Below, one piece after another: positions 1,250 to 24,250 of a DNA stretch of 24,961 nucleotides. Both the position numbers and the translations under genes were made by a program. The stretch's first letter is position 1. Each line of letters opens with the position of its first letter. Source of the DNA: a virus; IMG/VR virus record IMGVR_UViG_3300030202_001468, positions 1 through 24,961 of that record; one strand, given 5' to 3'. Under the pieces are notes generated by a model. The model was given only the letters and a program-made list of their open reading frames with translations. It ran no database searches and was not told where the DNA came from.

Positions 1250-2342
1250 AGGTGTAAAGAAAGATGAAGTAACTTTTACCTTTGGAAAGTATAAGGCTAC
1301 TGCAACTAGAGATTTTAAATCGTTTGCAGAGAATTATAAGATATGGAGAAGAACTTGTTCCGGTTTAAGAGGTAGGGCAATTGGTGTTGCTAAAACCAAA
1401 AAGAGTTTATTAGGTTTAGTTGTAGGTATGGGCAAGTTAGGTCGAATTGCAGGAAATAGTGGGCCAATGAGTGATAGAGGTTGGACATACATTGATAGAG
1501 AATTGAGAAAAATATTTAGTTTAAAGGGTGGTAGGCAAATAGATAAAGGCCAATTAGATTTATTGAAGAACTTAGATAATTTGTTGGAAGAATATAAAAA
1601 ACCAAACAGTCCTGCTAATCCTGCTAATATTTCATTTGAAGAACCTCTTAATTGGGATGATGAAACAGGAGAGGTTTTAGAAAGAAGAAATGTATATGGT
1701 CATTATTTAACAGAAGATTATGTAGAATATAGAAATGAATTCAAAGGTACTAAATTAACTGCGGTTGACAAAAGTTGGTATTCATATCAAGATGATGGTT
1801 CAGCAAGACCTCCTATGTGGCAAGCCTTGTTTGGAGAAGATAAAATTCTCGGAAAGGAATCAAAGGGTTTACAACAAGTTGTAAAAGATGCAATTAAATC
1901 ATTTGCTAATTTAGGATTATCATTTAGGAAGGATACACCTATTCCAATTCAAGGAAGAGGTAGTGGAGCAGCCGCATTAAAAATTCCTGAAATTAAATCT
2001 ATGTTTACTGCATTTGCTAGAGATGATGAATTTACAACTCCTGCGGGTAATTTTAGTACAGATAAAGCAGCAAGAATAATTAGGAACACTCCAATAAATC
2101 TAACAACCAAACAACATCAAAATGTGTTACGTCAAATAGAATCAGATTTGAAAATTCCAAATGAGATTGAAGAAGTTTACATTAAGATGTCTAGAGGGCA
2201 AATGAAAAATATGGCAGTATTAGCAGGATGGAAACCTCCTGTAAAAGAAGAACCTAAAAAGGAAGAACCTAAAGATACTGTTAGAACTAGTGCAAATGTA
2301 GAACCTACAGATTGGAGAACTATAATGAAGGTGAAAGTATGA
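1242..2342 (+). CDS. Unknown 366-aa protein with C-terminal tag
   Basis: I chose the GTG at 1242 because GAGGTG at 1231-1236 sits at proper spacing; an in-frame GTG at 1218 would add eight residues. The N-terminal part is basic (FGKYKATATRDFKSF, WRRTCSGLRGRAIG), followed by a mixed region with several aromatic residues. A Lys/Glu/Pro linker (VKEEPKKEEPKDT) leads to the last residues TDWRTIMKVKV, which match the tag but lie at the C-terminus (W358). The gene overlaps its upstream neighbour by 8 nt and its stop overlaps the next ATG as ATGA. No domain is recognised. A flexible linker ahead of a terminal tag fits a protein tethered to another virion component, which is an inference. Confidence 0.75.
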   Translation: MTKGVKKDEVTFTFGKYKATATRDFKSFAENYKIWRRTCSGLRGRAIGVAKTKKSLLGLVVGMGKLGRIAGNSGPMSDRGWTYIDRELRKIFSLKGGRQIDKGQLDLLKNLDNLLEEYKKPNSPANPANISFEEPLNWDDETGEVLERRNVYGHYLTEDYVEYRNEFKGTKLTAVDKSWYSYQDDGSARPPMWQALFGEDKILGKESKGLQQVVKDAIKSFANLGLSFRKDTPIPIQGRGSGAAALKIPEIKSMFTAFARDDEFTTPAGNFSTDKAARIIRNTPINLTTKQHQNVLRQIESDLKIPNEIEEVYIKMSRGQMKNMAVLAGWKPPVKEEPKKEEPKDTVRTSANVEPTDWRTIMKVKV

Positions 2343-2635
2343 AGTGGCAAAACATACTAAAAAACAATTCTAAAAAAATGAAACAACAAAAATGGAGAAT
2401 GGATAATTTAGGGTTCAAAGAAAACGAATCTATTTTTGAATATGAGAAAAGAACAGGTGATAAAATAACATATCATGACAAATACGATAAAAATGGACAG
2501 TTTACTGAAGAGACTATACAATCTAAAAAACACGGTAATATTTCTATCACTCCGAATAACTATGGTTTTCAAACCTTTGAATGGGATATTGAAGGTGATG
2601 GGGAGTGGTTATTAGAAAGAGGCGGATACATATGA
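2339..2635 (+). CDS. Tagged small protein, unknown function
   Basis: This 98-aa protein starts MKWQNILKNNS at the ATG at 2339, which overlaps the previous stop as ATGA and has GGTGA four bases upstream; that decides the start over an earlier in-frame TTG at 2312. After the tag comes a Lys/Gln-rich helix, then a probable beta region (DKITYHDKYDKNGQF, ISITPNNYGFQTFEWD). It ends near the next ATG, again as an ATGA overlap at 2632. There are no membrane segments. The family is not recognised. It belongs to the tightly coupled chain of tagged genes on either side. Confidence 0.75.
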   Translation: MKWQNILKNNSKKMKQQKWRMDNLGFKENESIFEYEKRTGDKITYHDKYDKNGQFTEETIQSKKHGNISITPNNYGFQTFEWDIEGDGEWLLERGGYI

Positions 2636-4098
2636 GTTGGGAAAAAGTATTGAAACAACCGGAATTACAGCAACCACCAATGGAGCAACCGCCAATGGAA
2701 GAACCTATGGTTGACCCAACAACAGGATTACCATTAGACCCTATGGCTCAACAAGCAGGTATGGCAGTTCCTCCTCAAACTCCTACTAATCCAAATCCAA
2801 CAGGAGAAGAAGAATTTCCTGTAGACCCTGAAGTAGAAGATGATGCTAAATTAAATAAATGGTTTTCTACTATTGTAAAACAAACAAATCCATATAATCA
2901 ACCAACAGTAAATCCTGCTACGCCTGACCCTAATAAAAAAAAAGAACAGGCTGAGGCTGCTGCTTTAAGAGAAAAGTTAGCAGGTGAAGCAAGAGCCAAA
3001 CAAGCATCACAAAGGATTCAAGCAGACTTTCAAAGAAGGGCTAAAGCAGGAGCAAAAGCAAATAGAAAACCATTAGTAACTAGTGTTCCTCAAGGAACAA
3101 TAAATCCTGATGCTCCTTTAGAAGCGGCAGGTAGAGCAGTTCTAAGTGGTGGTAAAAAGATTTTAGGTGGTGGTAAACAACTTGCAAGTGGAGCAATGGC
3201 AGCAGGAGCAGATACCGCAACAAGTAGAGAATTAGTACAAGGAGCAAAAAATATTAAACAGGGTTTAAAAGAAGAAAAAGATACATTAATAGGAGCAGGA
3301 AAGAATGTTTTAGATGCAGGAAAAAAAGTTTTTCAAACAGGCCAACAAGCCATAGCAAATCCAAAGGGAGCAGTAAGGGAAGCAAAGAAAAATTTGCGAG
3401 CAATGGGGGCTGAGACTAAAGAAAGTTGGAAAGATGCAGTTAAAAGAAGAAATGAAAGAGTATATGGTGGATATGAAAATCCACAACAACAGAAAGAGGC
3501 GGAAGAAAAAGAACGTATTGCAGAGAGACAAAAAAAGATTGCAGAGAGAGTTAAGTTCCGACAAGAACAACAAGCAATTGGAGCAAATAAACCTCGTCAA
3601 TATACAGACCCCGAAACAAGTGAAGTAAAAGATATGGAAAGGGGTTATGCTGATACGGCTATAGAAGAATATGATGTATCAGATGAAGGCGAAATAAAAT
3701 TTCAAACATTTAAAGATGCCTTTATGCGAGAAAATGTTAGTCCAATGAAATATAAAAATGAACAAGGTTACAGAACTAAAATAAATAATATTTTGAGAGA
3801 TAGATATAAACTAGATGTGTCAGATAATTTACCCAAAGAAATGATTGCAGAAATATTAGACGATTTAGAACAACCAACTCTAAGGGGAGAAAAAGTAGAA
3901 CCAAGACTTCTTACAGAAGAAGAAAGAGTTGAAGCGTTCAAAAGACAGAAAGAAGGGCGTGGCTTAACAGGTGCATATTTAGCAGGACGAGAAGACGAAG
4001 TCGAAGACAAAGACGAAGAAAAGAAAATGGATTTACAAAAACAAGATAGAAGAGATGACCCTGCACTATGGGAAAGTTGGGATGGTGGACTAATTTGA
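2632..4098 (+). CDS. Tagged large protein with Pro/Gln-rich and Ala/Gly/Lys helical regions
   Basis: This 488-aa protein begins MSWEKVLKQPE at the ATG at 2632, overlapping the previous stop. Residues 10-70 are Pro/Gln/Met-rich and probably disordered. A second tag-like sequence, NKWFSTIVKQ, lies at W77. Residues about 110-285 are Ala/Gly/Lys-rich with repeated units such as GAGKNVLDAGKKV and GGGKQLASGAM, suggesting long amphipathic helices. Residues about 285-330 are a highly charged coiled coil (QKEAEEKERIAERQKK). The C-terminal third is more globular and ends acidic. This composition resembles internal or ejected virion proteins rather than an enzyme, and amphipathic repeats can interact with membranes; both points are inference. 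No named family is recognised. Confidence 0.8.
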   Translation: MSWEKVLKQPELQQPPMEQPPMEEPMVDPTTGLPLDPMAQQAGMAVPPQTPTNPNPTGEEEFPVDPEVEDDAKLNKWFSTIVKQTNPYNQPTVNPATPDPNKKKEQAEAAALREKLAGEARAKQASQRIQADFQRRAKAGAKANRKPLVTSVPQGTINPDAPLEAAGRAVLSGGKKILGGGKQLASGAMAAGADTATSRELVQGAKNIKQGLKEEKDTLIGAGKNVLDAGKKVFQTGQQAIANPKGAVREAKKNLRAMGAETKESWKDAVKRRNERVYGGYENPQQQKEAEEKERIAERQKKIAERVKFRQEQQAIGANKPRQYTDPETSEVKDMERGYADTAIEEYDVSDEGEIKFQTFKDAFMRENVSPMKYKNEQGYRTKINNILRDRYKLDVSDNLPKEMIAEILDDLEQPTLRGEKVEPRLLTEEERVEAFKRQKEGRGLTGAYLAGREDEVEDKDEEKKMDLQKQDRRDDPALWESWDGGLI

Positions 4099-4751
4099 TT
4101 ACTAGAAAGAGATGTCCTTTGTGTACTCACGAAGATAGAAGTCAACTTGAAGCAGACTTAGAATCAATGAGTTATACTACTGATGCGTTAGACCAACAAA
4201 TGAATTGGCCTAGTGGAACTAGTTCAAGACATCAAAGAAATCATATGGGCAATTATACTAATTCATCAAACCCAAGATGTAAATTATGTGTTAATCCGAT
4301 TCGGAACGAATTGGAGGAACAACTTCACGATGGTAATATGACACCCGCAGGTGCGGCTAATATTGTTGGTTGTTCTGAAGACCAAGTTGTTAGACATATG
4401 AAAAGTCATCTTCAACCATTAGTTCAAGAATCTGCTGCTCAATTAATTGCTAAAAAAGAAGTTGATGAAATAGATACTCTTAGTAATAATATTTCTAGAC
4501 TTGAAAGTAGGATTGATATGTTGTTTAATGAAGAAGGAACAGACCCTAAGTATATTGATTCGTTAACTAAGTTAGCAAAAGAAATTCGTGAGAGTTTAAA
4601 ATATCTCATGGAGTTTAAGGGTAAGTTAGTTCACAAGAGACAAGACACAATTATAGTTCATCAGATGCAGATTGTAAAAGAAGTTCTTGCACAGAACCAT
4701 CCTGAAGTTTGGTTGGATGTTAGAAATAAAATGCAGGAGAAGTTACAATGA
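4095..4751 (+). CDS. Tandem zinc/HTH protein, probable terminase small subunit
   Basis: Residues 7-50 and 62-105 are two copies of one module: C-x2-C, 35 residues, then H-x3-H (C7, C10, H46, H50 and C62, C65, H101, H105). Between the metal ligands each copy has a helix-turn-helix-like stretch, clearest in the second (GAANIVGCSEDQVVRHMKSH). A long coiled coil (about 120-170) and a helical tail follow. DNA-binding HTH plus a coiled-coil oligomerisation region is the usual plan of small terminase subunits, which recognise viral DNA for packaging; TerL lies 5.5 kb downstream. The TTG at 4095 has GGTGG six bases upstream and forms a TTGA overlap. An in-frame ATG at 4068 would add nine residues (MGKLGWWTN). 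It could instead be a transcriptional regulator. Confidence 0.6.
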   Translation: MITRKRCPLCTHEDRSQLEADLESMSYTTDALDQQMNWPSGTSSRHQRNHMGNYTNSSNPRCKLCVNPIRNELEEQLHDGNMTPAGAANIVGCSEDQVVRHMKSHLQPLVQESAAQLIAKKEVDEIDTLSNNISRLESRIDMLFNEEGTDPKYIDSLTKLAKEIRESLKYLMEFKGKLVHKRQDTIIVHQMQIVKEVLAQNHPEVWLDVRNKMQEKLQ

Positions 4752-5218
4752 ATTGGTTTAGTGTTCTGAAAGAAGATGATGATGATGGTCCATACTCTAT
4801 TGAAAAAACGCCGGAAAAGGTTAAGGCAGCACTAGACAAGAAGAATGAATTTAAAAGAAAGAAGGAAGAAGTTATACAAGAATATCTTAACTATGTGGAC
4901 ACCTTTGGAGTAGGAGAAAATAGAAAATTAACATCAGTAGGCCAATTAGGTACAATCAATCAAGAAGGTAGGATATTTAGAAAAGTCTATGAAAAGGCTT
5001 TAAAAGATATAGGAATTCTTGGACATGATAAAATAAAAATAGATTATACAAATTATGAACAGTTTGATGTTGATAGAAAAATAAGTGATTTGAGAAATGC
5101 TCTTGAAAATGCAAAGGAATTTTATAAAGATGATATTAAGGATTTCTATCGTACTAGAATAAAAGAAAGGAATTTGTATAAAATGAGTTGGTTTTCGGCA
5201 ATAGGTGATTTACAATGA
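4748..5218 (+). CDS. Tagged helical protein with tags at both ends
   Basis: This 156-aa protein begins MNWFSVLKEDD (ATG overlapping the previous stop) and ends MSWFSAIGDLQ. The interior is helical and charged, with long stretches likely to form coiled coils (DKKNEFKRKKEEVIQEYLNY and ISDLRNALENAKEFYKDD). The C-terminal copy is preceded by an in-frame ATG at 5183, only 32 nt before the start of the next gene, which itself opens MSWESVLK. The repeated ATGAGTTGG suggests local duplication of a start region. The final GDLQ codons contain GGTGAT, the ribosome binding site of the next gene. Function is unknown; it is presumably a virion-interior or assembly protein. Confidence 0.75.
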   Translation: MNWFSVLKEDDDDGPYSIEKTPEKVKAALDKKNEFKRKKEEVIQEYLNYVDTFGVGENRKLTSVGQLGTINQEGRIFRKVYEKALKDIGILGHDKIKIDYTNYEQFDVDRKISDLRNALENAKEFYKDDIKDFYRTRIKERNLYKMSWFSAIGDLQ

Positions 5219-6990
5219 GTTGGGAATCTGTATTAAAAAACGAAGATGAGAAAACAACTCAATCTAAGTTACCTAAAGAATTAATTCCTGAAGGTGCTAC
5301 TGTTGCTACAAGACCTATAGAAGAATGGTTCAAAGGAAAACCAAAGAAAACTAAACCTGTAGATAATACAAAAGGTACAACACAAACATCATTAGGAGAT
5401 TTTGAAAAGGCAGAAAAACCTCCTGCTAAATATTGGGATAAGCAGATTAACATTCTAATGTTGTCAGATAATAAAGCAGGTATTGAAAAACTTATTCAAG
5501 GTGTTAAAGATAATAGTACAGATAACAAAGGATACACATATGATAGGGTACAAATATTAAGGGCAGCAAATCGTCAAATGAAAGAAGCCGGAGATGAAAA
5601 TGAAAAAGAACTTATTCAAATGATACTAGATGGTATTCCTAAAGCACTAAGAGATACACAATCTATAGATGAAAGACCTCTTATGAAAAATAAGATTCAA
5701 TTAATATTAGATGGTAAACATGATGAAGCATTAGAATATTTTGATGCTAACGAAAGAAGACGAAGAGAACTTAAGGTATGGGATGAAAAGAACGAAAATA
5801 AATTATCTGAATATTTAAAAGATAAACCGGAACTTGCTGCACAATTAAAATTTAAACTTCCACAAGAGGAAGAAGATTTGAAAGTTAAAGTAGATGAAAG
5901 TAAATTAACTCCTGAATTTTTAGTAGAATATTTACAGATGTTGTACAATGTAGGAAACATGATGAAACCTCCTTATGTTCCAAAACAATTTGTAAAGATG
6001 TTAGGTAGAAGAGTAAATCCTTCTTTAGAATGGATTATGGAAAATCCTAATTTTGAACCATCTAAGTTCCCAAAAAAAGGAACAGTAAAACAAAGCAGCC
6101 AACAAGAAGCCGTATATGAAATGTTAAGAAACAATCTATTTGTAGATGAAGACGCAGAAATTATACCAAAAACAGGAGAAAATGTTTCTGAAGTTATACA
6201 AAACTTATGGGATGATTCAAAGGGCAACATTAAAGATTTTAGAAGATTAATGAAAGATAATCCTAACAGTTTTTCTTTAGAAAATGAATTTTCTTCTAGA
6301 GTTAGTGGGAAAGAAAATATAGATTATAGTATTCCTAAAGCAGACCATGATGCTCTTATGGCTGCAAAGAATAAAAAATTAAATGAAAAACAATTAAAAA
6401 TATTAGAAAAATATTTTACTGATATAGATGAAGACGAAGTAATTGATTTTTATGAACAATATGAAAAAGAAATAAATCGTATGAAAGATAATAGAAGTGG
6501 AGGAATGAGAGCAGCATCCAAGGAAGATGGTAAAAAATTAATTAGATTATTTGGTCAACATGGAGAGGCTAAAATCTTTTCAACTGATACTATTGATACA
6601 GATGAAGATGCCTTAGAAGAATATTTAGCCTTAGCAAGAAAAACTGATGGTGCTAATATGTTTAGATTGGATGAAGTTTCAACTCAATCTGCAACATTGC
6701 CAAGTGTTATGCGAGTTTTAGGTAGGTTATCTATGTTAACTGTAGGCGGAGCAAATAGTTTACCAAGATTAGTTAAAAGATATGGTAAACAAGCATCCGA
6801 AGAAAATGAAAAAGATTTGAGAGAAGCATTGTCGCAATCAAATTATGATAAATTAAGAGAGTCTTTTTTTGATGCGTTAAGGAAAACTATTGTAGACTAT
6901 ATGGGTAGTGGCGACAAAAGTATACTACATGGTATGAAAAAGATAGAACCTTATAATTGGGTAAAAGCGAGGGTAGCAGATGGTAACTAA
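5215..6990 (+). CDS. Tagged 591-aa protein, unknown function
   Basis: The protein begins MSWESVLKNEDEK at the ATG at 5215, with GGTGAT at 5204-5209. The N-terminal 80 residues are Lys/Pro/Thr-rich and probably disordered. The rest is a long soluble helical protein with no signal peptide or membrane segment. The region around FRLDEVSTQSATLPSVMRVLGRLSML and SLPRLVKRYGKQASEENEKD is the most conserved-looking part. I see no catalytic motif. Its stop overlaps the next gene by 11 nt. Together with the 898-aa neighbour it forms a 4.5-kb block of large unknown proteins just upstream of the packaging genes. A minor virion or ejected protein is a reasonable guess. Confidence 0.8.
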   Translation: MSWESVLKNEDEKTTQSKLPKELIPEGATVATRPIEEWFKGKPKKTKPVDNTKGTTQTSLGDFEKAEKPPAKYWDKQINILMLSDNKAGIEKLIQGVKDNSTDNKGYTYDRVQILRAANRQMKEAGDENEKELIQMILDGIPKALRDTQSIDERPLMKNKIQLILDGKHDEALEYFDANERRRRELKVWDEKNENKLSEYLKDKPELAAQLKFKLPQEEEDLKVKVDESKLTPEFLVEYLQMLYNVGNMMKPPYVPKQFVKMLGRRVNPSLEWIMENPNFEPSKFPKKGTVKQSSQQEAVYEMLRNNLFVDEDAEIIPKTGENVSEVIQNLWDDSKGNIKDFRRLMKDNPNSFSLENEFSSRVSGKENIDYSIPKADHDALMAAKNKKLNEKQLKILEKYFTDIDEDEVIDFYEQYEKEINRMKDNRSGGMRAASKEDGKKLIRLFGQHGEAKIFSTDTIDTDEDALEEYLALARKTDGANMFRLDEVSTQSATLPSVMRVLGRLSMLTVGGANSLPRLVKRYGKQASEENEKDLREALSQSNYDKLRESFFDALRKTIVDYMGSGDKSILHGMKKIEPYNWVKARVADGN

Positions 6991-9676: not shown

Positions 9677-9681
9677 TATTA

Positions 9682-10243: not shown

Positions 10244-11680
10244 ATGGAAGTTAGTGGTATAGATTTCATGTCTGATATGGACATGGAATTATCTAAAAAT
10301 TCTTTTCCTTATTTTTTTAAAAATGTCTTAGGTTGGGATTTTGCAGAACACCAAGAGGAATGGTTTGACTTAATGAATAAAACACAGAGAAGTGTAATCA
10401 TATGTTCTAGAGGTCATGGTAAATCTGTATTTATGCATAGTTGGGTTGTATGGAATTTAATATTTCAAGAGCCACCATATCAAATGCTTTACATTTCTTC
10501 TAACCAAAAACAGACTCTTGTTCACATGAGAGAAATTGATAGATATTTTAATCATCCTGCTCTTAAAAGATTCAAACCTACTAGGGGATGGGCTATTGGA
10601 AATATACAATTGACAAACGGAAATCAAATATTGGAACGTTCCGTTGGTTCGCAGATTCGTGGTCTTCATCCACAGGAAATTATTATTGACGACCCTTTGA
10701 AGGAGTTTAGTTTGTCTGCTATTCAACGTGTTACAGATTGGTTTTTTGGAGACATGATACCTACTTTACATCATACCGCTAAGTTAAGAATGATTGGTAC
10801 ACCATTTACTTACACGGATATTTTTGCACAATTAGAAGAAAATGATGCGTATACTGTAAATAAATATCCTTGTCTAAATTCATTAAATGAACCACTTTGG
10901 CCGGCAAGGTGGGATTATGAATCATTGATGCAAAGAAAGGCTGAGATAGGTTCTTTGAAATTTACAAGAGAATATCTATGTGTTCCAATTTCTACGGGTA
11001 CAGCATTGTTTAATCCTGACTACATAGAAAAATGTAAAAATAAAGATTATATTTTAAAATTAGGAAATAGAAGAGAAAAGGGGTATAGATACTATGTAGG
11101 AGTTGACCCTGCTATATCTACTGATGGTGACTATAATGTTATTACAGTTTTAGAAGTAGATGAAAATCAAAATAAAACAATAGTACATATTGATAGAGCA
11201 AAAAACGTAGAGTTCAGAGAAAATATAGAAAAGATTCGTATTGTGGGTAAAATATTCCAACCGGATAAAATATTTTATGAGACCAACACCTTTGCAAAAG
11301 CATTTACACAAGAACTTAGAAATGTTTCTGATTTAAACGTGCATGACTTCAATACTACTAGAAGGAAGAAACAAGAAATTATTTTAAATTTACAAATGAA
11401 TATAGAAAATCAGAAGTTACATTTCCCATATGGAGATGTTAATAGTAAAAAAATTACTAATATGTTAATAGAAGAATTGTCAATGTTTAGTATTACTGAA
11501 TCAGGTAGATTTGAAGGGGTTGGAGCACATGACGATTTAGTTATGAGTTTGGCATTAGCCAATGCTGCAAGTCAGTCAGCCAATGAAACATTTATCTTAC
11601 TTGATGACATGGATATATTCAATTCGACCCAAAAGCCTGTTAACTTGATGGCAAGTGGAGTGACAGGGTTGAATCTTTGA
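10244..11680 (+). CDS. terL: Terminase large subunit (packaging ATPase/nuclease)
   Basis: This 478-aa protein has the full two-domain plan of a large terminase, the motor that pumps DNA into the procapsid through the portal and cuts the concatemer. ATPase domain: Walker A CSRGHGKS at 54-61, Walker B EIIIDD at 145-150 (the second acidic residue is D rather than the usual E), and the coupling motif MIGTPF at 183-188. RNase H-like nuclease domain: GVDPA (D288), FYETNTF (E346) and AHDDLV (D430, D431). Length is normal for the family. The start has GAGGAGAT upstream and lies one base after the previous stop. It shows no tag at either end. No intein or truncation is visible. Confidence 0.97.
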   Translation: MEVSGIDFMSDMDMELSKNSFPYFFKNVLGWDFAEHQEEWFDLMNKTQRSVIICSRGHGKSVFMHSWVVWNLIFQEPPYQMLYISSNQKQTLVHMREIDRYFNHPALKRFKPTRGWAIGNIQLTNGNQILERSVGSQIRGLHPQEIIIDDPLKEFSLSAIQRVTDWFFGDMIPTLHHTAKLRMIGTPFTYTDIFAQLEENDAYTVNKYPCLNSLNEPLWPARWDYESLMQRKAEIGSLKFTREYLCVPISTGTALFNPDYIEKCKNKDYILKLGNRREKGYRYYVGVDPAISTDGDYNVITVLEVDENQNKTIVHIDRAKNVEFRENIEKIRIVGKIFQPDKIFYETNTFAKAFTQELRNVSDLNVHDFNTTRRKKQEIILNLQMNIENQKLHFPYGDVNSKKITNMLIEELSMFSITESGRFEGVGAHDDLVMSLALANAASQSANETFILLDDMDIFNSTQKPVNLMASGVTGLNL

Positions 11681-13033: not shown

Positions 13034-14659
13034 ATGGTAGAAGAACAACGTACTTTTAGTATTAGAAATTTATTTAGGAGAACCACTCCTAAACCCGCAG
13101 ATAGACAAATATATAATATGGGAATTCAAGAAAAAAATTCATCATATTTATTGACATCACCAATTATTTATCAACTCGCTACGAATTCTACTATTGTAAG
13201 AACATGTACTACTCAATTAAAACAAGAAGTGTTTAGAAGAGGATATACATGGCAAGAAGCATTTTTAAGAAAATGTAATAGTTGTGGAAAGGAACATAAA
13301 AGTCCTGTTTCTAAATGTAGCAATTGTGGTTCTACAGATTTGGCAAAAGCAGATGAAAATCAATTGGCGTATGCTAAAGACCTTTTAGGAGGCTATGTAA
13401 ATAAAGCAGAACAGATGTTTATTGATGTCTTAAAAGAAATGGAAGATGACCTAAATATTATGGATGATGCTTATCTTGTTATGGTTAAAGAATATTTTAT
13501 GGATAATAATGGAGATATTCGTATGCATAGAATCAAAGAGATTTATCGTGGAGACCCTGTAACTATGCACATTTATGCTAATGAATTAGGAGAAAGAGGT
13601 ATTGATGGATATACATGTTTAAAGCATAGAAATATGTTAGCACAAAATCCTAGTGAAACTTGTGAACAATGTGGTTCTGAGTTACATCCTGTACATTATG
13701 TAAACAGAGTAAATGGTGAAGAACAATATTTTGTTAAAGGAGAAGTTTTACATTTTAGTAAATATTCACCTTCTAGATTATATGGTATGTCTCCAATAAT
13801 TACATTGTGGAATCAAGTTACTACTTTAACTGCAATGGAAAATTATGTAAATTCTTCTTACACAAAGGCTAGAATGCCAAAAGGTTTGTTAGCAGTACAA
13901 ACTAGAAACATGGATTCTATGAAATCTTTTTGGAGAAGCGTAAAAGAAAAAATGGAAACAGACCCACATTTTATTCCTGTTATGGGAATTGAATCTGAAA
14001 ATGGAAAGGGGTCTATTGAATGGGTTAAGTTCATGGACAGTTTAAAAGAAATGGATTACATACAAGTGAAAGAAGATTTGCGTGACAGAATATCTGCTTT
14101 TTATGGAGTTAGTAAAATTTTCATGTCTGATAATTCTGCAAGTGGAGGATTAAATAATGAAGGTATGCAAATACTTGTTACTAATCGTGCAGTAGAAATG
14201 GCTCAAACAATTTGGAATAATTATGTTTTCCCATTTGTTACTAAAGAATTTGGTATAACAGATTGGGAATTAAGATTACCTCCTTCCGAAGAAGAAGATG
14301 AAATTGCCAAATTACGAAAAAGAGAGATAGAAGTAAATGTTGCTGCATCAATTAAGAATTTAGGATTTGAAGTAAATATGGATGATGAAGGTAGGTTTAC
14401 CTTTGTTAAACCACCACCGCCACCTACTGACCAAGAACCTGTTGAAGAAGAAATGGTTGAAACAGACCCTTATGCAGGAACTAATATTGATGCTAGTCAA
14501 ATGGGTCAAATGATGGAAGCAGGTATGGGAACACCAACACCACAAATGAATCCAAACCCCACAAAGAATAAGGCTCGTAATAGTGTCGGGCCTGATAAGA
14601 GATTTAGTGGACTCCCTGCTGAAGCAGGAAATAGGAATGTAGACAGAAGAACAGAATAG
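13034..14659 (+). CDS. Portal protein with zinc-ribbon insertions
   Basis: The 541-aa product matches tailed-virus portal proteins, the dodecameric ring at the head vertex through which DNA passes. Supporting segments are EVLHFSKYSPSRLYGMSP, the following long helix, and the YIQVKEDLRDRISAFYGVSK and GGLNNEGMQILVTNRAVEM regions, followed by an acidic, Pro-rich tail. It lies two genes after TerL, the usual order. Unusually, it contains two probable zinc ribbons: C81, C84, C95, C98 (C-x2-C-x10-C-x2-C) and C195, H198, C210, C213 (C-x2-H-x11-C-x2-C). The C-terminal 90 residues are Pro/Met/Gln-rich and likely disordered. The start ATG at 13034 has GGAG about 10 bases upstream. There is no N-terminal tag. 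Confidence 0.93.
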   Translation: MVEEQRTFSIRNLFRRTTPKPADRQIYNMGIQEKNSSYLLTSPIIYQLATNSTIVRTCTTQLKQEVFRRGYTWQEAFLRKCNSCGKEHKSPVSKCSNCGSTDLAKADENQLAYAKDLLGGYVNKAEQMFIDVLKEMEDDLNIMDDAYLVMVKEYFMDNNGDIRMHRIKEIYRGDPVTMHIYANELGERGIDGYTCLKHRNMLAQNPSETCEQCGSELHPVHYVNRVNGEEQYFVKGEVLHFSKYSPSRLYGMSPIITLWNQVTTLTAMENYVNSSYTKARMPKGLLAVQTRNMDSMKSFWRSVKEKMETDPHFIPVMGIESENGKGSIEWVKFMDSLKEMDYIQVKEDLRDRISAFYGVSKIFMSDNSASGGLNNEGMQILVTNRAVEMAQTIWNNYVFPFVTKEFGITDWELRLPPSEEEDEIAKLRKREIEVNVAASIKNLGFEVNMDDEGRFTFVKPPPPPTDQEPVEEEMVETDPYAGTNIDASQMGQMMEAGMGTPTPQMNPNPTKNKARNSVGPDKRFSGLPAEAGNRNVDRRTE

Positions 14660-14667
14660 GTGCTTAT

Positions 14668-15021
14668 ATGGAAAAAAAAGATGAATGGTTTAATACATTA
14701 AAAACAGAAGAAGTAGAGAAGATTTTACCTGCATTACAAATGGCAGGAAGGGCAGGTTTGGCTGCTGCTAGAACTCCAATGGGTCAAGCGGCTATTGGGG
14801 CAGCAGGAAATTTTGCTAAAGATAAACTAAAACAAAGAGTAGAACAACAAAAGAAAGACCTAGAAGAACAAAAAAGGTTAATGGCTGAACAACAAAGATT
14901 ACAACAAGAGCAAGAAAATTTAACTAAAAAATTAGTAGGTAATCAAAAAAAATTAGATAAAGATGGTGATGGAGACATTGATGAAAAAGACTTCAAACAA
15001 TTAAGGGAGGAAAAAAAATGA
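14668..15021 (+). CDS. Tagged coiled-coil protein with EF-hand-like loop
   Basis: This 117-aa protein opens MEKKDEWFNTLKTEE, a tag displaced by four residues. Residues 20-50 are Ala/Gly/Met-rich and weakly hydrophobic (MAGRAGLAAARTPMGQAAIG); 51-95 are a Gln/Lys/Glu coiled coil; and 97-108 (DKDGDGDIDEKD) match a calcium-binding EF-hand loop, with D at positions 1, 3 and 5, G at 6, I at 8 and D instead of the usual E at 12. GGTG lies just before the start, directly after the portal gene. The stop overlaps the next start as ATGA. A Ca2+-sensing or Ca2+-stabilised virion component is plausible, as seawater calcium is high, but this is inference. Confidence 0.78.
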   Translation: MEKKDEWFNTLKTEEVEKILPALQMAGRAGLAAARTPMGQAAIGAAGNFAKDKLKQRVEQQKKDLEEQKRLMAEQQRLQQEQENLTKKLVGNQKKLDKDGDGDIDEKDFKQLREEKK

Positions 15022-16574: not shown

Positions 16575-16904
16575 ATGGATTGGTTTGAATTAGTAAAGGA
16601 AGATAGGGGTCTTGTTGCTAAGTTAGAACCTAAACAAAAAAAGAGAATCAAAAAACTATTACAGGCTGCTGAACCAACAGAGTTTATGGGTCAAGAAGTA
16701 ACTAAGTTGACTGATTTGATTTCAGAAATGAAGTCATTAGATTTAGTAAAGTCTGATAAGGTATTAAGGAAGAAATTAGAAAAATATGACGAAAGTAACT
16801 TAGACTTGGTAGCCACCGCATCTAAACTAAGGAAGGGTTACGAGACTCTTTACAATCAATTAAGAACAGTAGTTTATCCAAAAAAGAAAGGTGATTTGGA
16901 ATGA
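16575..16904 (+). CDS. Tagged small helical protein
   Basis: This 109-aa protein begins MDWFELVKEDRG, close to the tag consensus, immediately after the preceding stop. It is Lys/Leu/Glu-rich and helical throughout (KQKKRIKKLLQAAEP, VTKLTDLISEMKSLDL). Its last codons, GDLE, are set by the GGTGAT ribosome binding site (16890-16895) of the next gene, whose ATG overlaps the stop. No known family is recognised. Confidence 0.75.
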   Translation: MDWFELVKEDRGLVAKLEPKQKKRIKKLLQAAEPTEFMGQEVTKLTDLISEMKSLDLVKSDKVLRKKLEKYDESNLDLVATASKLRKGYETLYNQLRTVVYPKKKGDLE

Positions 16905-17515
16905 GTTGGTTTAAAATAATAAAAAAGGATAATAGTTCCGATTATAAAATACCCGATGATGTAAAGTCTTTCATAAGTGATTTAGAAGATGTATACGAAG
17001 AAAGTAGGGAACTTACAGACAATTTGGAAAATGCAGAATATAATTTGAGACATGGTTCTGAAGATGAGGATGAGTTAGAGAAAGTAAAACAAGAAATAGA
17101 AGACCTTTCTTCCAAAGTTTACGCATTAAGAACCCCATTAATATCTTTGATAAAAAAATATAAGATAGAGGATATGGATTGGTCTCCTAAAGAAATTGAA
17201 AAATCTCCAATTCAAATGCAAGATAAAGATGATGTTGACTATCAAAGAATAATTGATGCCTTAAAAGAAAATTTTTATGTTGACCCTCATGAGGATACAA
17301 CTCCAAAAAGAGGAAATGAAAATAAGAAAATTGTTGAAGAACTAGATGCGTTTCAAACTCAACATTATGAGCAGTATGGTACTCCTGAACAAAACCAAAG
17401 ATTAGAAGCATTCACAAGTGTAGTTAGTAATGGTGATGTTAGCAACTTAAGAAGTAGATTTCCTTTTGCACATTTAGTTTTTGATGAAGCAGGTTTATTA
17501 GGTGATTTAGAATGA
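16901..17515 (+). CDS. Tagged acidic coiled-coil protein
   Basis: This 204-aa protein begins MSWFKIIKKDNS at the ATG at 16901, with GGTGAT ending six bases upstream. Residues 20-90 are an acidic coiled coil (DLEDVYEESRELTDNLENAE, EDELEKVKQEIEDLSS). A middle part includes EDMDWSPKEIEKSP, which contains a Trp but is not a convincing second tag. The end, AGLLGDLE, again encodes the GGTGAT site for the following gene. Unknown function. Confidence 0.75.
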   Translation: MSWFKIIKKDNSSDYKIPDDVKSFISDLEDVYEESRELTDNLENAEYNLRHGSEDEDELEKVKQEIEDLSSKVYALRTPLISLIKKYKIEDMDWSPKEIEKSPIQMQDKDDVDYQRIIDALKENFYVDPHEDTTPKRGNENKKIVEELDAFQTQHYEQYGTPEQNQRLEAFTSVVSNGDVSNLRSRFPFAHLVFDEAGLLGDLE

Positions 17516-17691
17516 GTTGGCAAGATACTTTAAAATCTCATTGCGGAACAGAAAAATCTGACCCAATGGATAGAGTTACAACAACAACTTCTACAGGGCA
17601 AGATGAAGAAGCCGCTAAAAGAACTAAAGATAAAGAAAAAGAACTGTTGGCAAGAATATTAGAACGTAATAAGAAAGCAAGAGATAGATAG
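17512..17691 (+). CDS. Tagged 59-aa protein
   Basis: This short gene overlaps the preceding stop as ATGA, with GGTGAT at 17501-17506. It starts MSWQDTLKSHCG, continues through a Thr-rich string RVTTTTSTGQ (residues 21-30) and ends in a highly charged helix (KRTKDKEKELLARILERN). The VTTTTSTG string matches the small Cys-rich protein at 1049. The tag, tight coupling and ribosome binding site support it as real despite its size. Function unknown. Confidence 0.72.
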   Translation: MSWQDTLKSHCGTEKSDPMDRVTTTTSTGQDEEAAKRTKDKEKELLARILERNKKARDR

Positions 17692-17692: not shown

Positions 17693-17764
17693 ATGAATTG
17701 GAAAGCATTTTTAAAAGAAAGGATACAAGAGAAAGTTAAAGAATATAGGGAGGAACAAGCATGA
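17693..17764 (+). CDS. 23-aa tag mini-protein
   Basis: An ATG at 17693, one base after the previous stop, opens a frame of 23 codons beginning MNWKAFLKERIQEKVKEY and ending in a TGA that overlaps the next ATG (17761). The sequence is essentially the tag plus a charged helix. No strong ribosome binding site lies upstream, so translation would depend on reinitiation after the 59-aa gene. The frame also carries the AGGGAGG site for the next gene. If expressed it would be a free docking peptide; it could also be a relic of a larger tagged gene. Confidence 0.55.
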   Translation: MNWKAFLKERIQEKVKEYREEQA

Positions 17765-17994
17765 GTGATGAAAATAATGAAATGCTGATGTTATTAAAAG
17801 AGTTAGTAAGTAAGGTAAAAACGCTTGAAGAAGCAGTTTACAATAAAGATAATCTATTAATGAAATCAGGATTAGTTGTAGTAGACAGTCCTAAACCTGC
17901 AATGAATAGCGGTTCAAACCAAATGAGTGGAGATAAAATAGCAAAGATGGATTGGGCAGATATTCACAGTATAATGGAAACAATAGAGGGATAA
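17761..17994 (+). CDS. Small coiled-coil protein with scaffold-like C-terminal tail
   Basis: This 77-aa protein has an N-terminal leucine-zipper-like helix (MLMLLKELVSKVKTLEEAV), a Ser/Pro/Asn-rich linker, and a C-terminal MDWADIHSIMETIEG (W65). That plan (coiled coil, linker, W-x-x-I tail) parallels the end of the scaffold at 22884, which finishes LSWNEIADIARKYN. GGGAGG lies about 7 bases before the ATG and the start overlaps the mini-gene stop. A small scaffold-like or scaffold-binding protein is a reasonable inference; no family is recognised. Confidence 0.7.
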   Translation: MSDENNEMLMLLKELVSKVKTLEEAVYNKDNLLMKSGLVVVDSPKPAMNSGSNQMSGDKIAKMDWADIHSIMETIEG

Positions 17995-17998: not shown

Positions 17999-18406
17999 AT
18001 GAAGAAGAATTGGGAAAATGTGCTTAAAGCAAATACAAAAGGAAAGCAAATGTTAGCAGATGCTATAGCAGAAATATATAATTTAGATGCTATAGAAAAA
18101 GAATGGGTAGCAGCACATGGTTATGGCCCTGAACTCTTTTATCAAGGTATTATAGATTTCATAAAAAGTGGTACACCTTTAAAACAAGCAATTGAAGAAG
18201 AAAGAGAATCAGCAAGATTGCTTGCAGAACAAGACAAAGCAGCCGGAGGTAGACGACCTCATAAACCAATAATGACAATGGAACAGTATGAGATAGACCA
18301 AAGAAATGCAGCGAATCAAAGTTATAATCAAGTTATGCCACAACAAGGGCAACAACAAGGGCAACAACAAGGGCAACAACAAGGGCAACAACAAAGACCA
18401 CAATAG
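17999..18406 (+). CDS. Tagged protein with Gln/Gly repeat tail
   Basis: This 135-aa protein begins MKKNWENVLKANT, the tag shifted by two residues, with GAGGGAT upstream. Residues 15-75 are helical and look globular (ADAIAEIYNLDAIEKEWVAA, PELFYQGIIDFIKSGTPLKQ). The end is a low-complexity Gln/Gly tail made of QQGQ units encoded by a 12-bp tandem repeat (18341-18400). Unknown function; the tail length may vary between relatives by slippage. Confidence 0.75.
   Translation: MKKNWENVLKANTKGKQMLADAIAEIYNLDAIEKEWVAAHGYGPELFYQGIIDFIKSGTPLKQAIEEERESARLLAEQDKAAGGRRPHKPIMTMEQYEIDQRNAANQSYNQVMPQQGQQQGQQQGQQQGQQQRPQ
18341..18400 (+). repeat. 12-bp tandem repeat encoding QQGQ
   Basis: CAACAAGGGCAA is repeated four times exactly, followed by a fifth diverged unit (CAACAAAGACCA). 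It is in frame with the tagged protein at 17999 and codes for its Gln/Gly tail. It is a coding microsatellite-like repeat, not a CRISPR or origin. Confidence 0.9.
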
Positions 18407-19033: not shown

Positions 19034-21655
19034 ATGGCTCAAACAGGTTTAGCCTTTGAAAAAGAAAAAGATTCTTTAACACAACGGATTTTAGATTTCT
19101 TTGAACGTGCTAGGTATGCTTATCTTTCTGCAAGAGAAGACCCTGCTGAATATACATCTGAATGGAAAAAAATCATAAGAATGATGAAAGAAGATTTTGA
19201 TAACATCAGCAGTTTTGCAACAGAACTTAAAGAATTTATAGATGAAGATGTTTTATTTGATAATGATGTTATAGATGCAACATCTGATGAAGCACGTAAA
19301 TTATTTGAATCTATAAAAGATATGAGATTTAAATCAGATGAAATAACAGACCCGTTTGTTAAACAATTTAATAATAAAGTTATTGAAACCTTTATAGAAA
19401 AAGAAGAAGTTTTACTTGCATTTTTACATTATGCTATGAGAAGTCATTCAAATGCACTACCGGAAAAATTGTGGGAACAATTTGAAATGAAACCTGATTT
19501 AGTTACAAGAGGAGTTATGGGTTTAGATTTAAAAGTTCAAGATATTCCTTTGTTTGTGATAGAACATTATGGTCAAGAAAATACTAACAATTCTAGAATA
19601 AAAGGTAAAGTAAAAGCAGGAATGAAAAAACTAGAAGAAATGTACAAAGAAATATATCCTGAATCTAAGTGGGAAAATTTACAAGAATTAAACATTACAA
19701 AGGCGGAAAAAAGTGAAGAGGAAAAGGCAGACATTGATTTTTTAATTCCTAACAAACCAATGTACAGAATTTTTGAAATAGATGATATGAAAGAACTAAA
19801 GGGCTTTAGTGGTGAGTGGGTTGTACAAGAAAAATATGATGGTATGAGAATACAAATTCACAAAACAGATGATATTGTAACTATTTATTCTTATAATAAA
19901 AAAGATATAACTGATAAATGTCCTCAACAAGTTAAGGAAATGAAAAAGAAAAATTTCGGAGATTGTATTTTAGATGCCGAATTAACTTTATTTTTAAATG
20001 ATGAACCATTACATAGAGCAGATACAATTTCACATGTTTTCAAAAAAGAAACAAAAGGTAGATTGGCTGCTCATGTTTTTGACATTATGAAACATGAAGG
20101 TAAAATGGTTGCTGATGAGCCTTTGCGTGAAAGAATTAATATGTTATTTTATCAATACAGTCAACACTCCACTGAAAATTTAGCATTCCCTTCTAAAAAA
20201 GATACTCGTATAGCAGATTCTCTAAAAGAAATAGAATCCTATGCTAAAGATATTATGATGTTACCTAACTCTGAAGGTGTCGTAATCAAAGACATTGAAT
20301 CTACTTATTTAATAGGGAAAAAGAAAAACCCAAAGTGGGTCAAATGGAAAAAATTTATTGATTTAGATGTAATAGTATTAGATGATAAAAAGACTAAAAG
20401 TAATTTACATAGTTATACTATGGGAATTGGGCCTGTAACTGCTGAAGTTGCTAGAAAATACAAAACGGTAGAATTAGAAGATAAAGCATATGTGCCTGTA
20501 GGTAAAGCACTAAATACAAAACAAAGTGTAAAAATAGGAGATATTATTAGAGTCAAAGTTGATGAAGTAAAGAAAACTAAGGACGGATTTAGTCTATATT
20601 CTGCTAAAGTAATTGAATTACCGGAAGTAAATGAGTCTGATAATATTATTACATTAGAACAACTTGCAGGTAAAACTAAAAAATCTTTATCTGATTTTGT
20701 AGAGTTTGTGGCAGGTAGAACATTAGGCGGATTATTTAGAGTAAGTAGCGGACTTTCTGATACAGTAACAAATGGTAAAAAGAAAAAGAAAAAGGCCGGA
20801 ATAAAGAAATCATATTATATTACTGATGATATACATGGAACTGCTGAAATTATATTAAAAGAAGATATTGATGGATTCACTATTTATGGATTTGAAGGTG
20901 ATTCTCTTATGCAGAAAAATGCACTATACAACATAGATTTATGGAAAGAACAACTTACATCAATTTTGAAAACGAAAAGGTCTGAATTACGAGTTGCTAT
21001 TCGTAATGATATTATAGAGTATGGTGATAGCCCAAAACCTTTTGATAAAATATTAGATTTTGTTGTTAAAAATTATAAAGAACAGTATGAAGAATTATTT
21101 GATGGTAGAGAAGAAAAATTAATGTCTTGGATGAAAAAACAAGATGATATACGATATATACATCCTAATAAATTTCAAGCAAGAGAAGATATTTTAGAAA
21201 AAGATATTGATGACTTACAAAAAAAAGTAAAAGAAGCGAGTTTTAAAATATACCAACGTGAAGATGGTAATTTAGATTTTGTTATATTAATCGAAGATGA
21301 GAAATTAGCATGGACTATTGACATAGAAGATGCTGAAGATATATACAATTTGTTTGGTAAGTCAGGTAAGTTTCCTGCTGTAGTAGCAAAACAAGTTGAT
21401 GAAGATGATTTATTAGATAGTGGTAAATTAATTTTAGGTGTTCAAAAAGATGGTTATCACGAATACAAATTAGAAGGAGATAAATTTGATACAAGAATGC
21501 ATCTTAGAGTTGTACCATTAAATGAGAAAAATACTTGGATAGCATGGACAGGAAAAAAGCAAGAAATGTTAGACAATAAAGACAATGAAAATTTATGGGA
21601 TATAAGAGAAGATAAGTATGCAAAATTACAATTTCCTCCTAAAAGTGGCGACTAA
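19034..21655 (+). CDS. ATP-dependent DNA ligase with long C-terminal extension
   Basis: The central part of this 873-aa protein is an ATP-dependent DNA ligase, which seals nicks using a lysyl-AMP intermediate. Motif I is EKYDGMR with nucleophile K267; motif III ILDAEL (E316); IIIa HVFDIM (D350); IV EGVVIKD (414-420); V WVKWKK (K437, K439). An OB-fold-like region (about 445-535) follows. Residues 1-245 are a helical N-terminal domain, roughly where archaeal ligases keep their DNA-binding domain. Residues about 560-873 are extra; the last 120 (LDFVILIEDEKLAWTID ... GYHEYKLEGDKFDTR ... WIAWTG) loosely resemble a LigD-type phosphoesterase fold but lack its His/Arg cluster. GAGG precedes the ATG. 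It is placed among late structural genes, which is unusual, and has no tag. Confidence 0.92.
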   Translation: MAQTGLAFEKEKDSLTQRILDFFERARYAYLSAREDPAEYTSEWKKIIRMMKEDFDNISSFATELKEFIDEDVLFDNDVIDATSDEARKLFESIKDMRFKSDEITDPFVKQFNNKVIETFIEKEEVLLAFLHYAMRSHSNALPEKLWEQFEMKPDLVTRGVMGLDLKVQDIPLFVIEHYGQENTNNSRIKGKVKAGMKKLEEMYKEIYPESKWENLQELNITKAEKSEEEKADIDFLIPNKPMYRIFEIDDMKELKGFSGEWVVQEKYDGMRIQIHKTDDIVTIYSYNKKDITDKCPQQVKEMKKKNFGDCILDAELTLFLNDEPLHRADTISHVFKKETKGRLAAHVFDIMKHEGKMVADEPLRERINMLFYQYSQHSTENLAFPSKKDTRIADSLKEIESYAKDIMMLPNSEGVVIKDIESTYLIGKKKNPKWVKWKKFIDLDVIVLDDKKTKSNLHSYTMGIGPVTAEVARKYKTVELEDKAYVPVGKALNTKQSVKIGDIIRVKVDEVKKTKDGFSLYSAKVIELPEVNESDNIITLEQLAGKTKKSLSDFVEFVAGRTLGGLFRVSSGLSDTVTNGKKKKKKAGIKKSYYITDDIHGTAEIILKEDIDGFTIYGFEGDSLMQKNALYNIDLWKEQLTSILKTKRSELRVAIRNDIIEYGDSPKPFDKILDFVVKNYKEQYEELFDGREEKLMSWMKKQDDIRYIHPNKFQAREDILEKDIDDLQKKVKEASFKIYQREDGNLDFVILIEDEKLAWTIDIEDAEDIYNLFGKSGKFPAVVAKQVDEDDLLDSGKLILGVQKDGYHEYKLEGDKFDTRMHLRVVPLNEKNTWIAWTGKKQEMLDNKDNENLWDIREDKYAKLQFPPKSGD

Positions 21656-21656
21656 C

Positions 21657-21664: not shown

Positions 21665-21687
21665 TAAAAGTTGAAGGTGCTTGTTTT

Positions 21688-22884
21688 GTGCTTATGGCAG
21701 AATCCCTTTTAATGAAGGCAGATAGTAATCACGAATTTAGTATTCTAAAGTCTGATGATTTAGTCATTGGTGGATATGCTTCTATAGAAATTGTAGACAA
21801 ACAAAATGATTTAATTACACTTAAGGCATTAGATGAAGCCGTTCAAAAATATATGAAAGAAACAAAATACAGAAATGTAATGTCAAACCATTCTAATGTA
21901 CAGGTTGGAGAAGTTGTAGAAAAATACCGAGATAGTAATGGTATACTACATAAGACAGGTGTAGATGATGTTGGTTTTTATGTTGTTATTAAATTAAGAG
22001 ATGATATAGAAAAGGCAAAAGAAATTTCAAGAGGTATTAGGAAAGGAACTCTTCGTTCCTTTAGTATTGGTGGACAAGCAATATCTAAGAAACAGAAGAC
22101 AAATGATGAATATGGAGAGTATAACGAAATAGAAAAGTTAGAACTTCATGAAGTAACCATTTGTGAAAAAGGGATAAATCCCGAAGCGAAATTCGACATT
22201 TTAAAACAAGATGTTGGAGGTAATAAAATGAGTGAAAAACTGGAAAAAGCACTTGAGGAGTTAAATGACTTGATGAAACAAGTTAACTCTTCAATTGTCG
22301 AAAAAACTGAAGATAATACGACAGATGCCACCCTTGAAACAAAGGGCGATATGGAATACATGGATTCTGATAAAGAAATGATGGATACAGATGACAAGGA
22401 CATGGATGATGACGACATGGATATGGAAGAGAAGGCTCTTGATGAAGATTCAACAAGAGACTACGAAGCCGGAGAAGAGGTTGTTAGTGGTGGAACACCA
22501 AAAGCAACACCTGCTGGATTAGATGTTGTTAAAGGTCTAGAAGATTCTGATTTCTCAACTCTTAACTTGAGTGCAGAAAATGTTGAAAAAGCATATGAAG
22601 CATTCAAAGCAGAAAGAATGGAAAAGATTGCATACGATTCTCTAAGCAAGCAATTTGAAACAAGACTTGCTGAAGAATTAGAAGTTAAGAAAGCAAGTGC
22701 AGAAGCAGCAGCATATGATGCTCGTTCTGATGTAATTGCTTTGAAAGAAGAATTTGCAGAACTACGCAAATCTTTAACTGCACAAAATGATGAGATTGTT
22801 AAATCGCAATCTGTAGAAATTCCTAGTGATGTAAGTAACCTATCATGGAATGAGATTGCTGATATAGCGAGGAAATATAATTAA
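21688..22884 (+). CDS. Prohead protease fused to scaffold
   Basis: This 398-aa protein combines two functions. Residues 20-175 resemble the XkdF-like (S78-related) prohead serine protease: GGYASIEIVDKQNDLIT, then MSNHSN with probable catalytic H68, RSFSIGG with probable nucleophile S126, and LHEVTICEKGINPEAKF with a possible third member at E155. It would mature the procapsid by cleaving scaffold and perhaps tagged cargo. Residues 181-398 are a scaffold: coiled coil, a very acidic Asp/Met/Glu run (about 218-248), a longer coiled coil (310-370), and the tail SNLSWNEIADIARKYN (W387). GGTG at 21676-21679 supports the GTG at 21688; the ATG at 21694 is also possible. The capsid gene follows 13 bp later. 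Confidence 0.9.
   Translation: MLMAESLLMKADSNHEFSILKSDDLVIGGYASIEIVDKQNDLITLKALDEAVQKYMKETKYRNVMSNHSNVQVGEVVEKYRDSNGILHKTGVDDVGFYVVIKLRDDIEKAKEISRGIRKGTLRSFSIGGQAISKKQKTNDEYGEYNEIEKLELHEVTICEKGINPEAKFDILKQDVGGNKMSEKLEKALEELNDLMKQVNSSIVEKTEDNTTDATLETKGDMEYMDSDKEMMDTDDKDMDDDDMDMEEKALDEDSTRDYEAGEEVVSGGTPKATPAGLDVVKGLEDSDFSTLNLSAENVEKAYEAFKAERMEKIAYDSLSKQFETRLAEELEVKKASAEAAAYDARSDVIALKEEFAELRKSLTAQNDEIVKSQSVEIPSDVSNLSWNEIADIARKYN
22216..22221 (+). promoter_or_regulatory. Internal ribosome binding site for scaffold
   Basis: GGAGGT lies inside the protease coding region, six bases before an in-frame ATG at 22228, exactly where the protease domain ends. It is one of the strongest such sites in the window, suggesting deliberate internal initiation. 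Confidence 0.6.
22228..22884 (+). CDS. Separate scaffold protein from internal start
   Basis: In-frame initiation at 22228 would yield a 218-aa protein (MSEKLEKALEELNDLMKQ...) containing only the scaffold: N-terminal coiled coil, acidic run, central Ala/Glu/Lys coiled coil and the W-x-x-I tail. Phage lambda does the same with Nu3, made from an internal start in the C protease gene. GGAGGT at 22216-22221 is well spaced. This is a nested product, not an additional locus; that it is expressed is inferred. Confidence 0.55.
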   Translation: MSEKLEKALEELNDLMKQVNSSIVEKTEDNTTDATLETKGDMEYMDSDKEMMDTDDKDMDDDDMDMEEKALDEDSTRDYEAGEEVVSGGTPKATPAGLDVVKGLEDSDFSTLNLSAENVEKAYEAFKAERMEKIAYDSLSKQFETRLAEELEVKKASAEAAAYDARSDVIALKEEFAELRKSLTAQNDEIVKSQSVEIPSDVSNLSWNEIADIARKYN

Positions 22885-22897: not shown

Positions 22898-24250
22898 ATG
22901 AGTGGATATATAAAAACAATGAAAGATTTAGAAGCGGCATCATACGGTCTAAGAGGCGGTAATGGTAATGCTTTGTTGAAGGCTGCCGGAGTCGTTGGTG
23001 GATTAGGAGGAGTAGGACACGATTTACAACCTGCTTTTAGTGGTGCATCAGGACTAACGGATTTATACAATGTTCTTTACGGACAGAAAGTATGGTCAAT
23101 GCTTAACCAAGAGGTTAATGCTTTGTCAATGATTGCTAAGAGGCCATATACCTCAAGTGGTTGGAGAGTTCTAAAGAGCCGACCTCAAGGTGGTAGTGGT
23201 TCTGCTTTCGCACTTGGTAGTGGAGCAGCAGGAAGTGCTGCACCTAAAGCATCAGTAATTGGTGGAGTTGCAGAAAATGCTTCTCTAAGTAGTATTACTG
23301 CATTAGCCCCTGAATACACAAAACTGAATGTAAGCCCTAAAACAATAGCACACAAATTCGAGTTCTCTGAACTTGCAATGGAACTTGCTGCTATTGATGA
23401 TGGTGTTGGTGATATACGTGCTATAATCCGTGAGGATATGGGTAAACACCACGCTGAAGTACAGAACAAGATGTTATTAACACCTCTTGAAGTATATTCA
23501 GAAACAGGAACAGGAGATATTGTTAACAACTATACATCTTTGTATAAGGTTGTAGCAAGTGCTGAAGAAATTGGTCAAATGTACACTGATGATTTAACTG
23601 ACTTAGGTGCAGGTGGTACTAATGAAGCCCTTGAAGATACATTAGTAAGAATCTATGGACAAGATAGAGGAGTTACAGTTAGTACTGAAACTATTACAGT
23701 TGTATCTGATTTCTTGGATGCTGAAGTTGACTTCGGTGCAAGTTATGCAGCAGGTTCTACTAGAGTATTAACTTTAACAATACTAAATGACATGATTCGT
23801 AGAATCCGTCAAAATGGTGGAAACCCTAAAGTTATCTTAACAGGATACGATACTATACAACATATCTCTGACTTGCTACAAAGCCAAGAGAGATTTATGG
23901 ATAGGAAAGAAGTAGTTCCTACACATAACGGTGTTCGTGGAGTTAAAGGTGCTGAAGTTGGTTTCAGAGTTGCAACATACTATGATATACCAATTATCCC
24001 TTGTAAGGATATGGGTTCAACAACTGCTGCCGGTGTAACAAATGGATTAAGTGATATCTTTGTCTTAGATACAGACCATCTATGGCTATCAGTTATGAAG
24101 CCTACAGAATACTTCGAGGATGGTATTTCAAATGGAAACCCATTCGGTGTTGGAACTTTAGGAAATCAAGCAATGTACAGAACCATTGGTGAAGTATGTT
24201 GTTCTTTCTTTAAAGGTCAAGGTAAGATAACTAACTTGAAGAGTGCTTGA
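22898..24250 (+). CDS. Major capsid protein, HK97-fold
   Basis: The 450-aa product is the best candidate for the shell protein. It directly follows protease/scaffold with GGAGTGAT upstream. Residues 1-50 are Gly/Ala-rich. The FEFSELAMELAAIDDGVGDI and REDMGKHHAEVQNKMLL stretch resembles the HK97 spine helix region, and the part from NDMIRRIRQNGGNPKVILTG to ATYYDIPIIPCKDM and IFVLDTDHLWLSV is the typical A-domain pattern (an 'X-N-P-K-V-I-L-T' strand, then 'IPIIPCKDM'). Codon use shifts to C-ending codons (Phe is mostly TTC, unlike the ligase), as expected for a very abundant protein. The N-terminal region may be trimmed by the protease. It has no tag. Confidence 0.87.
   Translation: MSGYIKTMKDLEAASYGLRGGNGNALLKAAGVVGGLGGVGHDLQPAFSGASGLTDLYNVLYGQKVWSMLNQEVNALSMIAKRPYTSSGWRVLKSRPQGGSGSAFALGSGAAGSAAPKASVIGGVAENASLSSITALAPEYTKLNVSPKTIAHKFEFSELAMELAAIDDGVGDIRAIIREDMGKHHAEVQNKMLLTPLEVYSETGTGDIVNNYTSLYKVVASAEEIGQMYTDDLTDLGAGGTNEALEDTLVRIYGQDRGVTVSTETITVVSDFLDAEVDFGASYAAGSTRVLTLTILNDMIRRIRQNGGNPKVILTGYDTIQHISDLLQSQERFMDRKEVVPTHNGVRGVKGAEVGFRVATYYDIPIIPCKDMGSTTAAGVTNGLSDIFVLDTDHLWLSVMKPTEYFEDGISNGNPFGVGTLGNQAMYRTIGEVCCSFFKGQGKITNLKSA

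Follow-up and report, generated by a model that had tools for sequence, protein, structure and literature searches.

What does a 23-codon reading frame between two coupled genes of a viral head module encode, and what might its product do? We addressed this question for the microgene MNWKAFLKERIQEKVKEYREEQA in the window, the whole analysed stretch of 24,961 bases (30–35% G+C), whose features are listed in Table 1. The initial annotation had described a coupled gene opening with a tag-like stretch, and the frame, its junctions and its conserved homologues confirm that description. The stop codon of the 59-aa tagged gene upstream lies 1 nt before the microgene ATG, and the start of the 77-aa gene downstream sits inside the last microgene codons in an ATGA overlap. 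As detailed below, the microgene is a genuine gene of one branch of related viruses.

Table 1. Coordinates of features in the window.
Feature	Position	Strand	Evidence or remark
Tagged gene (MKWQNILK)	2339..2635	+	Tag pattern
Tagged gene (MSWEKVLK)	2632..4098	+	Tag pattern
Tagged gene (MNWFSVLK), second W motif at C-terminus	4748..5218	+	Tag pattern
Tagged gene, 591 aa (MSWESVLK)	5215..6990	+	Tag pattern
Terminase	10244..11680		
Portal	13034..14659		
Tagged gene, 117 aa (MEKKDEWFNTLK), EF-hand-like loop	14668..15021	+	Tag pattern; Pfam
Tagged gene, 109 aa (MDWFELVK)	16575..16904	+	In 136 of 161 loci
Tagged gene, 204 aa (MSWFKIIK), variable cargo	16901..17515	+	Tag pattern
Tagged gene, 59 aa (MSWQDTLK), variable cargo position	17512..17691	+	Replaced by other tagged genes in other lineages
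Microgene, 23 aa and stop	17693..17764	+	Intact homologues; pN/pS
Tag-like start of microgene, 8 codons (MNWKAFLK)	17693..17716	+	Tag-consensus matches W+0, L+4, K+5
GGGAGG, probable Shine-Dalgarno of 77-aa gene, within microgene	17748..17753	+	Sequence
77-aa scaffold-like gene, constant downstream partner	17761..17994	+	In 136 of first 161 loci; model
C-terminal W motif of 77-aa protein (MDWADIHSIMETIEG)	17947..17991	+	W 85/85, I+3 84/85
Tagged gene, 135 aa (MKKNWENVLK)	17999..18406	+	Tag pattern
Prohead serine protease (S78), scaffold-like tail	21688..22884	+	Peptidase_S78, E 7.9e-10
C-terminal W motif of protease (LSWNEIADIARKYN)	22840..22881	+	Proteases of relatives end in [ML]SWx[DE]IHxLAR or close
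Major capsid protein	22898..24250	+	SU10_MCP, E 4.7e-8; distant Druskaviridae capsid matches

The window corresponds to the head module of a tailed virus of archaea, encoding an HK97-type capsid protein, a portal, an S78 protease and a terminase. The opposite strand of its 92-kb relative G007 carries archaeal-type replication genes; TFB-like and RFC-S-like genes (both named by eye) and a second ligase were found there. In the phage collection, the capsid protein had relatives only in one Methanofastidiosa virus and in the Druskaviridae, which infect haloarchaea. This gene set agrees with what has been published on magroviruses (PMC10768690); shared with Magrovirales are the archaeal genes for replication and transcription on the opposite strand (seen in G007), relatives of about 92–103 kb, low G+C content and the distant capsid link to Druskaviridae. 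These are thus probably magrovirus-type viruses of marine archaea, an assignment made from the published description. A provirus search for the host yielded no relative among genome contigs, and no tag was seen at the ends of the head-module proteins of the Druskaviridae member HVTV-1. The head module also contains an 873-aa ATP-dependent DNA ligase (19034–21655 in the window; 4470–6026 in L164), which is a second ligase; G007 has in addition a 518-aa ligase on the opposite strand. As the latter sits near replication genes in G007, the head-module ligase might be packaged. Between terminase and portal, the ORF at 11692–13029 matched a PHROG of HNH endonucleases (E 4e-6) and is possibly a homing endonuclease.

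We collected loci by a search seeded from the 77-aa gene; the relatives are metagenomic contigs throughout, and some may be fragments. Of 107 distinct loci, 28 had an intact ORF of 23–33 aa at this place, and relative to the 77-aa start codon its stop always lay at −1 to +14 nt (examples: MNMKGILKRNLKEKLNEFRKEEDA, MIDWKIVLRQRIREDMLIAMKDIQEGA, MNWKEELRIRIKESLSKMYEEEAYNE and MQEINWKEYLRGELRECFKTIAEDEAVGGYY). In relatives, a separate ribosome-binding site (GGTGA or AGGAG) often precedes the microgene. None of 9500 shuffled upstream regions yielded such an ORF, a result to be read as a chance check and not as an independent discovery, because the ORF pattern was derived from the same sequences. 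On a tree of the adjacent ligase, the microgene family fell within one branch (47 rows, support 91, under the 95 mark); 30 of 104 rows were microgene-positive, a count that includes two hand-corrected labels (L067 and L088), with two fused cases besides, and the label changed four times compared with 26 in shuffles. Since only part of the relatives carry the microgene, and 15 rows inside its own branch are without it, the head design in general does not depend on it. A search by pattern within the fetched loci gave no convincing second copy elsewhere; the only candidate (G001:94655) was rejected, as it is an in-frame part of a longer gene. The microgene had no match in PHROGs, and no description of it was found in the literature searched, which is no proof of absence.

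Selection on the peptide was estimated from substitutions within seven close groups. For codons 2 to W+12, 27.8 synonymous and 27.2 non-synonymous changes gave a pN/pS of 0.22, the changes being counted on minimum spanning trees and hence approximate. When base composition and transition bias were allowed for, the omega-like ratio was 0.23–0.36 (p-value 1e-7 to 2e-4, kappa 1–6). The signal comes mainly from part of the groups, as two of the seven had no or almost no synonymous change. Individual loci illustrate the pattern: synonymous replacements such as AGG to CGA and GTT to GTC occurred in L003, and in the L099 group the first 19 residues were unchanged despite several synonymous changes. 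In the tail of the microgene the ratio was weaker (0.59–0.87) and not significant. These data show that purifying selection keeps the frame and its first ~15 codons, so the check proposed in the initial annotation, for a frame kept with synonymous bias in relatives, succeeded. Conservation, selection and the shuffles together led us to reject a chance ORF. A relic of a longer tagged gene, another option raised at the outset, would accord with the 91-aa gene of L071 and L130, which begins with a similar stretch, but is very improbable given long vertical maintenance under purifying selection, conservation across the clade with a pN/pS well under 1 and the finding that every copy was intact.

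The gene neighbourhood offers a different explanation, in which the ORF mainly serves as a translation leader that gives the 77-aa gene a constant start context, with Shine-Dalgarno sequence and coupling, while the cargo upstream changes. The 77-aa gene always comes next after the microgene, and this pair is constant while upstream genes vary and are often swapped: in several lineages the upstream neighbour is the homologue of the 109-aa gene (ending −4 to 43 bp from the microgene in L122, L119, L157, L110 and the L060 group), and in others it is drawn from a varying, mostly tagged group of genes. The microgene overlaps the start of the 77-aa gene in most members and holds a GGAGG in the window's lineage, kept in relatives L003, L005 and L088. 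Other genes, however, overlap this start likewise in lineages without the microgene, so coupling alone is no explanation for it. Amino-acid selection is, moreover, strongest in the N-terminal codons, away from the Shine-Dalgarno sequence, whereas a leader would leave the peptide itself unselected. RNA structure, which could have been a separate cause of conservation, was rejected, since folding of the microgene stretch was not above shuffles (z 0.56), and its absence also counts against a leader. Taken together, we consider a role mainly in translation quite unlikely. The interval between the 109-aa gene and the microgene receives mostly tagged, lineage-specific cargo insertions and is possibly a recombination hotspot.

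The tag that the initial annotation reported in the neighbouring genes is real. In the window, 13 ATG-initiated ORFs on the plus strand matched a loose tag pattern, 11 of which look true, compared with none on the minus strand. Among the relatives, the coding strand yielded 589 distinct N-terminal 16-mers with MxW and the opposite strand 39; the consensus of the former, M-S-W-x-D-[IV]-[LI]-K, was absent from the latter. Position 8 was K in 421 of the 589, and no E was conserved. Three relatives of 92–103 kb each had about 11 tagged genes in one block on the same strand, upstream of protease and capsid genes; the few matches outside the block did not resemble tagged genes. One tagged protein of the window (14668–15021) ends in an EF-hand-like loop, DKDGDGDIDEKDF (Pfam EF-hand_1, E 0.0028, under the Pfam cut-off), and in two relatives a 38-aa gene consists of little beyond the tag and such a loop (G007, 57979–58095; G008, 21641–21757).

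The distribution of the tag invites comparison with phage T4, in which capsid-targeting sequences (CTS) send internal proteins into the prohead and are removed by the prohead protease (PMC9026906, PMC9958956, PMC5694885). The T4 CTS of IPI–IPIII is an N-terminal peptide of ~10 residues carried by head proteins that otherwise differ, in a virus possessing a prohead protease (PMC9026906, PMC9958956); here too a short N-terminal peptide is common to unrelated head-module proteins, and a prohead protease is present. The sequence differs (MSWxxILK), the L/I-x-E cleavage motif is lacking and the protease is of the S78 type, not gp21. The MSWxxILK tag thus looks like an analogue of T4 capsid-targeting sequences and not a homologue; because the T4 cleavage motif is not found, we say that it may work like, and not that it is, a T4 CTS. 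Targeting and cleavage in these viruses are putative, and the microgene is itself an atypical tag.

How atypical it is became clear when microgene starts were scored against a profile of 391 distinct tags from longer proteins: they fell in the lowest 0–3%, and the fused 91-aa version was the only form with a normal score. In the window, K+1 and the residue at +3 fit the tag consensus poorly, and the score is in the lowest 1% of tags. Aligned on the W, the 24 distinct microgene sequences all shared K+1, L+4, I/L/V at +8 and a hydrophobic residue at +12, followed in frequency by K/R+5 (22/24), E+10 (19/24) and W+0 (17/24). Some lineages have M or R in place of the W, and at +3 the I or V of the tag often gives way to E, S, T or Y. 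The conserved unit is a hydrophobic stripe of ~13–16 residues that starts from a tag-like N-terminus, although the helical hydrophobic moment was not above shuffles in the members tested. Retention of W, L and K in most members suggests descent from the tag or mimicry of it.

This profile bears on the proposal that the product is a free copy of the docking peptide, binding the site used by MSWxxILK tags and C-terminal W motifs and thereby capping unused sites or timing assembly. The microgene's location in the tag operon and its matches to the tag at W+0, L+4 and K/R+5 speak for such a role. Against it stand the very low tag scores, the loss of the W in some sublineages and conservation that runs past the tag to +12, so that the description of the gene as almost only the tag is not supported. 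The idea of a competitor or cap is likewise weakened, because a competitor for tag sites should match the tag consensus well. On balance, we regard a free docking peptide as unlikely. A related and equally tentative reading is that of a stand-alone microprotein that descends from the docking tag in a packaging system of the CTS-like kind and has come to regulate this system in trans. By occupying tag sites, for example, or the helices that bear the W motif in the 77-aa scaffold-like protein and the protease, it might set the amount of cargo in the prohead, which we would likewise treat as doubtful.

The constant partner of the microgene has a scaffold-like appearance. The 77-aa protein was modelled as a helix (residues 2–36), a low-confidence linker and a second helix (65–76) carrying the W motif (mean pLDDT 66). 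In the model of the protease, whose protease domain was poorly modelled, a long helix (294–372) precedes a shorter one (385–394), so that the order of helix, linker and short C-terminal helix was modelled in both the 77-aa protein and the protease tail. Both proteins also have M[SD]Wx[DE]IHx[LIM], or a near match to it, at the C-terminus, and no sequence relation between them was seen. The core [SD]Wx[DE]I, common to the N- and C-terminal forms, suggests that the two bind one partner. Further C-terminal W motifs occur in window ORFs 1218–2342 (DWRTIMKVKV), 9673–10242 (SNWFYIMQRR) and 4748–5218 (MSWFSAIGDLQ), and an internal one, MNKSLDWFEVVKKK (493–1005), corresponds to the start of a separate gene in relatives, suggesting a fusion.

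A resemblance to the end of the tag recurs within three head proteins as [IL][LM]K. The protease has 'ILK' invariant or nearly so (FxILK and FD[IV]LK in 73 rows; FSILK and FDILK in the window), the capsid protein has LLK[AS] (NALLKA in the window) and the 77-aa protein has LLMKSG. [IL][LM]K is a possible cleavage site of the prohead protease; contrary to this reading, S or A after the K is not kept in tags. We retained the tag as a protease site only as a lead, given that the two sites in the protease lie on the margins of its S78 domain and are maybe structural strands.

Since the microgene is selected in a whole branch and always lies just before the scaffold-like gene, it probably makes a tiny head-building peptide. 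Our preferred reading, to which we give about an even chance, sees in it a short helical peptide of the prohead core, or one accessory to the scaffold, paired with the 77-aa protein, a partnership we infer solely from gene order. The peptide would enter the prohead via its tag-like start and act there as a short helical core component or scaffold accessory together with the 77-aa protein; coupled translation would probably fix the stoichiometry of the two. Entry by the tag route is uncertain, because the first residues of the microgene are weak tags. The other tagged proteins of the operon would be core components or cargo whose MSWxxILK peptides carry them into the prohead in the manner of the T4 CTS. 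Two further known systems offer parallels. The herpesvirus protease and scaffold form a pair with a common C-terminal capsid-binding peptide, and here one motif terminates both the protease and the small scaffold-like protein of 77 aa; unlike the herpesvirus pair, these two proteins are not versions of a single gene. In T4, gp67 and gp68 are encoded between portal and protease. They are small prohead core proteins (PMC9958956), to which the microgene is analogous in place and size only. Alternatively, the peptide could be carried in the head and ejected to act in the host cell after infection. The tag operon resembles a store of variable packaged cargo, and T4 internal proteins provide a precedent (PMC9026906), but the microgene stays with the 77-aa gene, unlike the swapped cargo genes, and we hold ejection to be improbable.

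In these abundant uncultured viruses of marine archaea, a selected, taxonomically restricted microgene thus occupies a precise site in the head module, where about a dozen proteins are marked by one short peptide. If this peptide directs packaging, it would represent a capsid-targeting system outside T4-like phages that is readable from sequence.
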